DNA from: Desertivirga arenae
GTDB lineage: Bacteria; Bacteroidota; Bacteroidia; Sphingobacteriales; Sphingobacteriaceae
DNA length: 64,000 bases
Assembly (NCBI RefSeq): GCF_017355785.1
Contig: NZ_JAFEWE010000005.1
Span: 186,001-250,000 of the forward strand
Direction of reading: 5' to 3'
Shown: piece by piece, positions 3,433 to 17,496 of the stretch
Position numbering within the stretch: position 1 is the stretch's first letter
How the letters are laid out: each line of letters opens with the position of its first letter
The notes under the pieces: generated by a model
Told to the model about the DNA's origin: nothing
The model's input: only the letters and a program-made list of their open reading frames with translations
The model's database searches: none
Translations under genes and position numbers: made by a program

Positions 3433-6400
3433 ATGAAGAACGAATCCGGTCGCTATAAAAGGTGGTTAGTTAAATCACTCTTCTTATCATTATTTATTTT
3501 AATATCGGGCATGGCAAATGCTCAGTATTTCGGGCAAAACTTAGTTAGGTATAAAAACCTGAAATTCAAGGTAAAACAATCTCCTCACTTTGAGTTATAT
3601 CATTATCTGCGTAATGATAGCCTTGTAAACAGGTTTATGCAGGAAAGTGAGGTATGGTATGATCTTCACCAGCAAGTGTTTAGAGATACTTTCGCTAAAA
3701 GAAATCCGGTAATTCTTTATGAGAACCATCCGGATTTCCAATCTACCACTGTCCTTCAGGGCGGGGCGAGTGTAGGTACCGGCGGTGTTACAGAAGGCAT
3801 GAAGAACCGGGTGGTTATGCCAATTCAGATGCTAAACCATCAGACCAGACACGTACTGGGACACGAACTTGTTCACGCATTTCAATATCATACGCTTATA
3901 GAAAACGACTCTACTAATCTTGAAAATATTGGCAACCTTCCTCTTTGGATGGTTGAAGGAATGGCTGAATACCTTTCGGTCGGTAAAGTTGACGCCTTCA
4001 CAGGGATGTGGATGCGCGACGCTTACCTGAACAGGGATATCCCGACACTCCGGGATTTAACCACAAATAGCAGGTATTTCCCCTATCGTTATGGACAAGC
4101 ATTTTGGACTTATATCGGCTCCACTTATGGAGACACTGTTATCGTCCCTTTATTTAAAGCAACGGCTAGGTTCGGATATGAAATGGCAATCCGAAGGACT
4201 TTTGGATATGATGAAAGAACTTTATCAAGTCTTTGGAGAACAGCTATCGAGAACCAATATAAGCCGATGCTGAAAGATACATCACAGGTTCCAATTGGAA
4301 AAAATATCATCAACAATAAAAACGGTGGGGATATGAACGTAGCTCCTGCAGTTTCTCCTGACGGAAAATACATTGCTTTTCTATCTGAAAAAGAACTTCT
4401 GAGTATAGACCTCTATCTTGCAGATGCTCAAACTGGGAAAGTAATACGACGGCTCACGAGCAGAGCTAATAATTCCCATATAGACGAGTTTAGTTTTATA
4501 GAATCGGCTGGAGCCTGGTCGCCCGATAGTAAGCGCTTCGCCTTCAGTGCCTTCAGCTCCGGCAGAAATAAACTATTCGTCATTGATGTAAAATCAGGTA
4601 AAACCCTTTCTGAAAATGCAATGGGGGAAGTTGGCGAGTTTAGTAATCTAAGTTGGTCCCCTGATGGTTCAAGCATAGCATTCACAGGTCTTAAAGACGG
4701 ACAAAGCGATATTTATGTCTTTAACTTAAATACAAAACAGCTAAATCAGTTAACAAACGATAAATACTCAGATTATCAACCTGCATTCGCTCCAGACGGA
4801 AAGTCAATAGTTTTTTCTACAGACAGAACTACTTTTGATAACGCTACAAAAACGGTGGATATCACCTACAGTCTTGCTTTGATCGACTTAACTACAAAGG
4901 CAATAACGAATATCAATGTCTTTACGGGTGCCAATAATCTAAATCCCCAGTTTTCAGGAAATAGTCAACAGCTTTATTTCCTTTCAAACCGAGACGGGTT
5001 TAGAAATATGTACAGGTATACTCTAAGCAGCGGACAGGTAGAACAACTTACAGACTATTTTACAGGTATAAGTGGTATCACTGAGTATTCGCCCGCTCTT
5101 AGCGTTTCCTTAAATGATGACATTGTTTACTCTTACTACAGATATCAGAAGTACACGATTTATAATGCTAAAGCAACGGATTTCAAGCCGGTGGTGGTAA
5201 ATCCACAGGAATTGAACTTTGATGCAGCTATTCTCCCTCCTTCAAAATCATCAGGCGTGGATATTATTAACGCTAATTTGGAGAACTTTGAGCGGTTTGA
5301 AACAATCAGTGCTAATAACCTTAATCCTACAAAATACAGGCCGCAGTTTAAGCTTGATTATTTGTCAAGCAATGGTGTAGGAGCGTCAGTTGGACGTTTT
5401 GGTACAGGTATGTCAAGTGGTGTACAGGGAGTATTTAGTGATATTCTTGGAAGGAACCAAATTTATGCGTTGGCATCTGTAAATGGAGAGATTTATGATG
5501 CAGGGGGTCAGGTAGCTTATATTAATCAAAAAAGCCGTATTAACTGGGGAACAGCAGTCTCGCACATCCCTTATTTATCGGGATACAATGTTGCTTACTT
5601 CAACAAGGACCAACCAGCTGCTGATGCAAATGCCAGCTTTATTTATGGGTACGATATTATAAGAACATTCGAGGATCAGGTGCAACTGTTCGCATTTTAT
5701 CCCTTCTCCAGGACATTCCGTTTTGAAGCAGGAACAGGGGCTGCAAGATATAGTTATCGAATTGATAGATATGCAACATATTACTATGCCAATTACGACG
5801 AAGCTAACAGAACAAGTGAGATTTACAGTCCCTACAGATCTGACCGAGCAAAATTATCAAAGGATGATGCTCGCGACTATTATGGAATAGACTTCAAGTC
5901 ATTTTCCATTTACCAACTTAATGCAGCCTTTGTTGGTGATAATGCGCTATCCGGGATAACCTCACCTTTAAGTGGTTTTAGGTACCGTTTAGGGGCAGAC
6001 GCAATGTTTGGGGATTACCGGTTAACTTCTGTAACTGCAGATTTCAGAAAATACGTCCGCCTAAAGAAAGTTACCCTTGCTGGTCGTGCTTATAGTTACT
6101 CAAGATTAGGTCGTGATGAGGACAGGCTTTACCCGCTGTTTATAGGTTATCCGTATCTTATCCGGGGATACGAAGCTAACTCCTTTTACAACAATGAATC
6201 CGCCAGTGGAAGTACCTTCACCCTCGACCAGTTAGTAGGTTCAAAAATTGCTGTAGGTAACCTTGAAGCTCGTATTCCATTTACAGGACCCAAAAAACTA
6301 ACTGCGATTGAGTCTAAATTCCTTTTCTCAGACTTGAACTTCTTCTTCGATATAGGGCTAGCCTACGACAAAGATTCAAAGGTTGCATTCCGGGGTACAC

Positions 6401-15581: not shown

Positions 15582-16250
15582 TTAAGCTTGAATAAGGGTC
15601 GAAGCTTCTTTAAGTTCTTTAATTACTTCCACAGGATTTGTTGCACTGAATACAAAATTCCCGGCAACTAAAACATTTGCTCCTGCACTAAGCAATGCAC
15701 CCGAATTATTACTATTTACCCCTCCATCAATTTCTATCAAAAGATTATCATTCCTTCCTGCTGTTAAACTCTTCAATGTTCTGATCTTCTTATAGGTATT
15801 TTCAATAAATTTTTGTCCGCCAAATCCAGGATTTACAGACATTAATAATACCATGTCCAAATCCTCGATCAGGTCATCTAAAACAGAAACCGGTGTATGC
15901 GGATTTAAGGCAACTCCAGCAATGCAACCAAGGTCTTTGATAGCGTGAATTGTACGATGAAGATGAGTACAAGCTTCATGATGAACAGTAATCGTTGCAG
16001 CTCCAGCCCTCTTAAATTGCTCCAGGTATCTGTCAGGATCGACAATCATCAAATGAACATCTAAGGGTTTAGAGGCATATTTCTCCAAGGCCGCGAGAAC
16101 AGGAAAACCAAAAGAGATATTCGGAACAAAAACACCATCCATAATATCCACATGGAACCAGTCTGCTTTACTCGAATTAATCATTTCTATATCCCGCTGT
16201 AGATTACCGAAATCCGCTGCAAGTACTGAAGGTGCTATAAGGTGATTCAT
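15582..16250 (-). CDS. rpe: Ribulose-phosphate 3-epimerase
   Basis: This 222-residue TIM-barrel enzyme of the pentose phosphate pathway interconverts ribulose 5-phosphate and xylulose 5-phosphate. The family landmarks are complete: IAPSVLAADFGNL at the N-terminus, WFHVDIMDGVFVPNISFG (metal-binding His and Asp), DVHLMI, MSVNPGFGGQKF, and LIEIDGGVN (metal and phosphate site). The TonB receptor gene follows directly. A TATATTTG box lies 4 bp before the ATG and another lies about 195 bp upstream, ahead of a putative terminator (see the separate entries). The leader region may therefore regulate this gene or encode a separate RNA. Confidence 0.96.
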   Translation of the reverse strand: MNHLIAPSVLAADFGNLQRDIEMINSSKADWFHVDIMDGVFVPNISFGFPVLAALEKYASKPLDVHLMIVDPDRYLEQFKRAGAATITVHHEACTHLHRTIHAIKDLGCIAGVALNPHTPVSVLDDLIEDLDMVLLMSVNPGFGGQKFIENTYKKIRTLKSLTAGRNDNLLIEIDGGVNSNNSGALLSAGANVLVAGNFVFSATNPVEVIKELKEASTLIQA

Positions 16251-16254
16251 CCTG

Positions 16255-16262
16255 CAAATATA
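16255..16262 (-). promoter_or_regulatory. TATATTTG box directly before rpe
   Basis: Exact TAnnTTTG match on the minus strand, but only 4 bp before the rpe ATG. If used, it would give a leaderless or nearly leaderless rpe transcript. No TTG lies at the -33 distance, so chance occurrence is possible. Confidence 0.3.
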
Positions 16263-16366
16263 AATCTTTCAAACTGTAGTCGCTGATATTAGGAGTACTT
16301 CATTTTCGGAGGATTGCGAAACTAACCATTGGTAGAATAACTATTATGGGAGTTATTAGGCCAGTT

Positions 16367-16442
16367 AATAAACAAAATGCCCCTAGCCAGTAAAGGCTTG
16401 GAGCATAGGTAGAATGTAGGGGGAACCCCCTTGATTTAGGGA
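16367..16442 (-). ncRNA. Candidate ~75-nt small RNA (or attenuated rpe leader)
   Basis: On the minus strand a TATATTTG promoter box is followed at once by a compact structured segment. A G5-TT-C5 palindrome at 16419-16430 comes first. A terminator-like hairpin at 16377-16406 follows: ATGCTCC/GGGGCAT plus AGCC/GGCT, with a 6-nt loop. A T-rich tract (TTTTGTTTATT) then precedes a further 117 bp before rpe. Promoter, body and terminator are therefore all present within about 90 bp, which is what a free-standing small RNA looks like. The alternative is a leader that is prematurely terminated and sometimes read through into rpe. It does not resemble tRNA, SRP RNA, 6S RNA, tmRNA or RNase P RNA as far as I can tell. 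Confidence 0.45.
16377..16406 (-). terminator. Intrinsic terminator of the candidate small RNA
   Basis: On the minus strand a 7-bp outer stem (including one G-T pair) and a 4-bp inner stem are separated by one T-T mismatch and closed by a 6-nt loop. A T-rich tract follows at about 16367-16376. Confidence 0.6.
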
Positions 16443-16445
16443 CTG

Positions 16446-16453
16446 CAAATATA
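16446..16453 (-). promoter_or_regulatory. -7 promoter box (TATATTTG) of the candidate small RNA
   Basis: Exact match to TAnnTTTG on the minus strand, the same octamer as in the tRNA promoter of this window. No clear TTG at -33, so activity would rest on the -7 element. Confidence 0.45.
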
Positions 16454-16632
16454 ACAAATAAGCTTCGACATTTTTCCTATTATGTTAAATACTTTCAGAA
16501 AACTCCCTTTCAAAACGTAGGTGAGGCTGAAGGTTGAATTAAAATTCAGGAAGAAGACTTTGAGATAGCCGGTTTAAAACTTATTGATTGGTAAAGGGTT
16601 AATGTTAGGTGTTTTAAATCAAAACAAATACT

Positions 16633-17496
16633 ATGAAATTTATCAGATCACAAAACGCGGACGGCACTCCAGTTAATCTTTTTTACGAGGATTGGGGTTC
16701 GGGGTCTCCCGTTGTGTTTATCCATGGCTGGCCACTGGATCACCAAATGTGGGAATATCAAACAAGTGTCTTACCTAACTTTGGCTTTAGATGTATCGCT
16801 TACGACCGTCGCGGTTTTGGAAAATCCGACAAACCCTGGGATGGGTATGATTACAACACGTTAGCAGATGATTTAAAAGCCTTGTTGGATCAGCTGGATC
16901 TACAGAACGCAACCCTTGTCGGCTTTTCAATGGGAGGAGGTGAAATTGTTCGATACTTCAGTAGACATGGCGGTAAAAGAGTTTCAAAAGTTATTCTAAT
17001 TAGTTCCATCGCTCCTTTTATGAAGCAAACGGATGATAATCCCGATGGAGTTCCCGCTAGTAAGCTTACAGAAATCACAGAGTCTTTACAGGAAGATAGA
17101 GCCGGCTTTCTGGTAGATTTCGCTAAACAATTCTATGGCTTTAGTTTGCTTAGCCATCCGGTAAGCCAAGGGGTACTCGATCGTGATTTCCTTATTGCCT
17201 CTCAGGCGTCCTTAAAAGCCACAATAGATTGTGCCCAGGCTTTTGGTGAAACTGATTTTAGAAATGAAATGCGATACATTAACGTTCCTACTTTGTTGGT
17301 GCATGGTGACGCAGACGAGACTGTACCAATTAAGGCGACAAGCGACCAGGCCTCAGAATTAATCACCCAATCAGAATATATTGTTTATGAGGGTGCACCT
17401 CACGGTTTGTTTTTTACCGATAAAGAAACTCTAAACGGAGATTTGATCCAATTTATCCAGGCGGAGAATAGCGTAGACGTAAACAGAAGTGTTTAA
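16633..17496 (+). CDS. Alpha/beta-hydrolase, chloroperoxidase-like
   Basis: This is a 287-residue single-domain alpha/beta hydrolase. The oxyanion-hole motif VFIHGWPLDHQMW, the nucleophile elbow GFSMGGGE (Ser in the GxSxGG form), the acid region VHGDADETVPI and the catalytic His in YEGAPHGLFFT give a complete Ser-Asp-His triad. The overall pattern (YDRRGFGKSDKPWDGYDYNTLADDL as landmark) matches cofactor-free haloperoxidases and related esterases. The physiological substrate cannot be read; esterase, lactonase or perhydrolase activity is possible. No signal peptide is present, so it is cytoplasmic. It is monocistronic, with a hairpin terminator about 25 bp beyond its stop. Confidence 0.85.
   Translation: MKFIRSQNADGTPVNLFYEDWGSGSPVVFIHGWPLDHQMWEYQTSVLPNFGFRCIAYDRRGFGKSDKPWDGYDYNTLADDLKALLDQLDLQNATLVGFSMGGGEIVRYFSRHGGKRVSKVILISSIAPFMKQTDDNPDGVPASKLTEITESLQEDRAGFLVDFAKQFYGFSLLSHPVSQGVLDRDFLIASQASLKATIDCAQAFGETDFRNEMRYINVPTLLVHGDADETVPIKATSDQASELITQSEYIVYEGAPHGLFFTDKETLNGDLIQFIQAENSVDVNRSV

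Follow-up and report, generated by a model that had tools for sequence, protein, structure and literature searches.

A putative small RNA gene upstream of rpe, conserved in a sister species and carrying a start motif common before translation genes

Introduction

Upstream of rpe, in the window analyzed here (the whole stretch of DNA, 64 kb in length), the minus strand carries a promoter box, two hairpins and a T-rich tail, and the question is what this arrangement encodes. A sequence-only reading had offered two answers: a free small RNA, or a leader whose hairpin decides read-through into rpe and the TonB receptor gene behind it. The parts on which it relied, namely a promoter octamer, a G5-TT-C5 palindrome, a two-part hairpin and a T-rich tail about 117 bp from rpe, are all present on the minus strand (Table 1). 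As set out below, the first answer is the one that our comparison of genomes favors, whereas the second fares poorly. The nearest named matches to rpe place the organism in the Sphingobacteriaceae. For the comparison within the genus, this genome (G000) was set beside two others, a sister species (G001) and G002.

Results

Read along the minus strand, the putative small RNA gene consists of the box TATATTTG, the segment CAGTCCCTAAATCA, the GGGGG/CCCCC hairpin, a linker ending in TCTACCT, the two-part hairpin and the T-rich tail. For Flavobacterium psychrophilum, a TAnnTTTG box at -12 to -5 relative to the transcription start has been described (PMC9723704). With this spacing applied to the box at 16453-16446, the small RNA would start at about 16441; this start and the end at about 16371 are both predicted rather than mapped. 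Between the end of the tail and the ATG of rpe (16250) there are 117-120 bases, and the next gene after rpe, one base away, encodes a TonB-type receptor (named by eye).

Table 1. Positions in the window of the predicted small RNA, its parts and the neighboring genes
Feature	Position	Strand	Basis
Putative small RNA promoter box TATATTTG	16453-16446	-	-7 box, -12 to -5 by the F. psychrophilum spacing
Extended promoter motif TAnnTTTGCnGTCC: box TATATTTG with CAGTCC directly after		-	sequence
Predicted small RNA, about 71 nt	16371..16441	-	box spacing, fold, terminator, conserved block
Palindrome GGGGGTTCCCCC (GGGGG/CCCCC)	16430-16419	-	sequence
5' hairpin: one A-U and four G-C pairs, loop GUUC	16418..16431	-	fold
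End of linker, UCUACCU, unpaired, same in both genomes	16407..16413	-	alignment and folds
Two-part terminator hairpin (16406-16377) and tail TTTGTT(T)	16371..16406	-	folds
Putative own promoter box of rpe, TATATTTG	16255..16262	-	sequence, spacing
rpe, ribulose-phosphate 3-epimerase, downstream neighbor	15582..16250	-	Pfam PF00834
Alpha/beta hydrolase, divergent upstream neighbor	16633..17496	+	Pfam

Judged singly against chance, the parts carry little weight. TAnnTTTG occurs 52 times in the 64-kb window against a shuffle mean of 71, which is not above chance; three terminator-like sites were found between 15500 and 17600 against a shuffle mean of 1.5, only a slight excess; and the fold of the 72-nt RNA has a z of -2.6, with 2 of 200 shuffles equally low. 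Predicted promoter, hairpin and terminator are each weak alone, and the evidence beyond chance is comparative.

This evidence comes from G001, where the element lies at the equivalent place: a hydrolase gene points away from it, and it is followed in its own direction by rpe, a TonB-type receptor gene, serC and serA, as here (the last three named by eye). When the two intergenic regions are aligned locally, a block reaching from the promoter to the T tail scores 54, and the best of 1000 shuffles scores 32. The 179 bases upstream of the block score 20 (the five highest of 200 shuffles, 26), and the 118 bases downstream score 24, the aligned part being the rpe promoter (the five highest of 200 shuffles, 23-33). 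The small RNA block and the rpe promoter are the only intergenic parts that align between G000 and G001. Promoter, linker and terminator thus appear to be kept as a unit while the flanks have turned over, which argues for a free small RNA. The identity of the two RNA copies, 50 of 72 columns (69%), is itself not extreme, since rpe and the hydrolase gene share 72% (482/669) and 70% (607/864) of their nucleotides with G001; it is only against the flanks that the block stands out. As a separate observation on these flanks, the G001 stretch from the RNA terminator to rpe (L122, about 5660-5860) contains repeats of CCTGAA..CAAGTTCAGGAT that were not seen by eye in the stretch of the window.

Both copies seem to have a promoter of their own, made of a TAnnTTTG box (TAAATTTGCGGTCC in G001) and the start motif, with CGGTCC in G001 in place of the commoner CAGTCC, and a predicted intrinsic terminator, a hairpin with a T-rich tail, is present in both. 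By a hand alignment of the two sequences, none of the 14 consensus pairs is broken in either copy; both partners differ in 2 of them (G-C to C-G, A-U to U-G) and one partner in 3. The 5' hairpin of G001 keeps three pairs, and its innermost G-C has become C-G. The consensus folds at -20.9 kcal/mol, whereas column shuffles average -3.3 and none of 1000 is as low; the size of this contrast is flattering because the alignment was built by hand around the hairpins, and so leans towards structure, and because the shuffle control moves single columns. On the opposite strand the consensus energy is -9.2, with 19 of 1000 shuffles as low; the fold is weaker there because G-U pairs become A-C mismatches. 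From this polarity of the fold, together with the box and the T tail, transcription would run on the minus strand. Among the bases that are unpaired and the same in both copies, UCUACCU forms the longest run.

The two copies served to build a covariance model of the RNA (R1), which by construction matches both. Among 201 genomes of the family, at E values up to 0.1, R1 matched in 10, namely the two copies and 8 weak matches; in a set of 37 relatives, searched with E values of up to 5, it matched in 18, and G000 and G001 each gave a single match at this looser limit too; and among 400 genomes of the order, at E up to 0.02, it matched in 2, which are the two copies. These sets overlap, and the searches of 201 and 400 genomes used stricter filters. 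In none of these three sets did a third copy appear at usable scores. Six of the 8 weak family matches were read in context, and four of these lie inside reading frames. Those in G033 and G011 fall by eye in the start region of a tRNA-Thr gene, with the promoter motif in common, and the letters aligned in G102 and G082 are the same as those of G011. Two weak matches of the 37-relative search (G022 C91 and G003 C55) coincide with members of the promoter class described below. In G002, which has a different gene upstream of rpe, R1 gave no match at E up to 5; given this missing match, the small RNA may be young, or lost or dispensable in G002. The hairpin conservation in related genomes that the sequence-only reading had named as a test was seen in one of the two other genomes of the genus, G001, and not in G002.

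The pattern of promoter, CTACCT and TGCTC occurs in 4 of 151 family genomes, which are the two copies and G138 and G074; the latter two have no terminator hairpin after them (by eye) and look like chance. A DNA search with the intergenic stretch against 60 genomes matched only the window itself, a negative that means little because the G001 copy, which is among the 60, was missed. With Rfam 15, the window gave two tRNAs only at the gathering score and no family on the element, 6S included, and the region 15900-16900 at E up to 10 gave six weak matches, far below the gathering score and none of them on the strand and at the place of the element. As far as Rfam 15 reaches, then, the earlier remark that the element resembles no recognizable RNA family stands. 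On present data, the small RNA appears to be confined to two species.

The weak matches in tRNA-Thr regions of another genus had TTTGCAGTCCCTAAA too, and a wider promoter class came to light. In the three genomes of the genus, TAnnTTTGCnGTCC matched 36 times, as against 17 matches for the backwards and 13 for the scrambled pattern. Thirty of the 36 loci were read: 8 lie inside reading frames of at least 120 codons and 22 outside, counting as outside one locus before tRNA-Leu that overlaps an opposite 125-codon frame, and among the scrambled-pattern loci 2 of 13 are outside frames. Two of the 22 are the small RNA copies. Sixteen of the 20 others precede tRNA genes (six) or ribosomal-protein genes (ten: L13 twice, S21 twice, S20 three times, S12, L3 and one S1-domain protein taken as S1), where one protein of each name was identified by Pfam and the rest by like N-terminal letters. 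The remaining four precede a starch-synthase-domain gene (two loci), a gene without a Pfam match and nothing evident. The two starch-synthase-domain loci (L176 and L196, motif at about 1501) come from different species of the genus.

The stricter pattern TAnnTTTGCAGTCC, which misses the small RNA copy of G001 (CGGTCC), matched 361 times in 41 family genomes from 25 genera, against 18 times backwards. Among 16 further loci of this pattern, seven stand before ribosomal-protein genes (by eye), five before tRNA genes and one before a likely glutaminyl-tRNA synthetase gene (by eye); the remaining three are of other kinds or unclear. Across the family, TAnnTTTGCAGTCC is a putative start motif that stands mainly before genes for tRNAs and ribosomal proteins. 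As the start region of the small RNA would be common with that of the translation machinery, its expression may be strong and linked to growth. The tRNA-Gly gene of the window itself has TATATTTGCATCACC in place of this motif. A 5'-terminal hairpin common to the class was considered and set aside, the first two C's pairing in 23 of 38 distinct starts as against 51% of shuffles. In the three draft genomes of the genus, 16S rRNA gave no match. In two genera (L216 and L218, at about 1501; by eye), the start motif also stands before a gene whose protein product probably has a membrane anchor, its N-terminus reading MST and then KSL.FIAGGIVVL. The titles considered in a limited survey of the literature for the string TTTGCAGTCC are unrelated, and the motif cannot on that footing be called undescribed.

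The gene rpe seems to have a start of its own. Its ATG is preceded, at a distance of exactly 12 bases, by a TAnnTTTG box both in this genome and in G001. The same distance is seen in 19 of the 30 best-matching family loci (L002-L031), and 22 of these 30 have the box within one base of it; of the others, one has the box at -35 and seven have none in the 40 bases examined, five of the seven being one letter off at the usual place. In Sphingobacterium, the 13 rpe loci among named records have the box at -23 to -33. With a box at -12 and the spacing given for F. psychrophilum (PMC9723704), the rpe transcript would start at the A of the ATG, and rpe is probably leaderless and independent of the small RNA. 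The same source puts leaderless mRNAs at 5.5% in F. psychrophilum (PMC9723704), and a report on Bacteroides thetaiotaomicron puts 5' leaders under 10 nt at about 3.7% (PMC7366714).

Discussion

We are reasonably confident that this locus is a stand-alone small RNA unit of about 71 nt with an extended promoter, rather than any of the alternatives weighed below. The unit, its structure, its promoter class and its conservation in one sister species can be read directly from the genomes; its transcription, its ends and its coupling to growth are what we infer from them. In the mechanism that we propose, a primary-sigma promoter of the extended TAnnTTTGCnGTCC type, which the family employs for tRNA and ribosomal-protein units, would drive the small RNA, probably strongly and in step with growth, and its transcription would stop at its own intrinsic terminator, while rpe would be transcribed separately as a leaderless mRNA. 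The small RNA may then act in trans, base-pairing with mRNAs through the exposed UCUACCU linker between the 5' hairpin and the terminator hairpin. UCUACCU is thus a candidate pairing seed, and for pairing in trans, with this seed and whatever targets it may have, we would put the chances a little short of even. The seed complement at up to 30 bases before a start codon (AGGTAGA-N0-30-ATG) occurs 407, 272 and 316 times in G000, G001 and G002, and the reversed pattern 544, 312 and 366 times; as there is no excess before ATG in the three genomes, the targets, if any, would be few or elsewhere. A wider proposal, in which a growth-coupled RNA of the TAnnTTTGCAGTCC-class promoter, near variants included, ties ribosome production to mRNAs through UCUACCU, is speculative and in our view rather doubtful.

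Among the alternatives, the one that survives best is an RNA that binds protein through its hairpins and does not pair with mRNA. RNAs of the 6S and CsrB type are protein-binding in this manner, as decoys or scaffolds. Two stable hairpins with compensating changes would suit such a function, a stable-RNA-type promoter would fit an abundant RNA, and seed complements before ATG are not in excess; however, the longest identical unpaired stretch is the linker, and the Rfam search yielded no family, 6S included, so that we regard this reading as improbable, though not negligibly so. Still less probable is a leader or attenuator of an rpe-TonB operon, in which the terminator hairpin would be opened or closed to control read-through. 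The small RNA and rpe do share a strand, the RNA is immediately upstream in both genomes, and read-through would reach both genes because rpe and the TonB receptor gene are one base apart. However, the box at -12 seen in 19 of 30 family loci, both RNA-carrying species included, would give rpe its own promoter; over the 118 bases (window) or 219 bases (G001) downstream of the block, only the rpe box aligns, so the stretch from terminator to rpe promoter does not appear conserved; family genomes such as G002 have the same rpe box with other upstream genes and no such RNA; and a single fold of the whole region, not aimed at finding an antiterminator, shows no obvious one. The suggestion that the hairpin decides read-through into rpe is for these reasons one that we do not retain. 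A minimal peptide gene, kept for translation and not for the RNA, is very improbable: in each copy the second hairpin has a possible start codon at its base (ATG CTC CAA GCC TTT ACT GGC TAG here, GTG CTC TCT GCC TTT TGA in G001), and the first five codons include three identical ones, but the lengths differ (7 versus 5 residues) and conservation of the stem accounts for the shared codons, the first base, A here and G in G001, keeping a U partner in both.

If the stand-alone small RNA is the correct reading, it is a concrete and testable gene. Of more general interest is the promoter class, as the start motif would predict translation-machinery units in 25 genera of the family and could serve in finding other growth-coupled RNAs in the phylum. 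As a putative small RNA gene without an Rfam family and with narrow conservation, the element belongs to a kind already known. A limited survey of open-licence literature found no described small RNA of Sphingobacteriaceae. The families of Rfam 15, Flavo-1 and 6S among them, are likewise structured RNAs found by comparison, with no match to this one. Closer likenesses are offered by GibS and Rfp18, which we liken to the present RNA by anatomy and description only. Rfp18 of F. psychrophilum is also a small RNA of a Bacteroidota genus with an independent transcript and a strong predicted structure; it differs in that it is described as having wide conservation in its genus and a link to proteases (PMC9723704). 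GibS of B. thetaiotaomicron resembles the present RNA in being intergenic, in having its own promoter, in genus-level conservation and in a conserved single-stranded stretch (PMC7366714). The two differ in that GibS has a non-canonical PM2 promoter, whereas the RNA described here would combine a TAnnTTTG box with the start motif of stable RNAs, and in that the seed of GibS lies in its 5' portion and has tested targets, whereas the candidate seed here would be the linker between two hairpins (PMC7366714).
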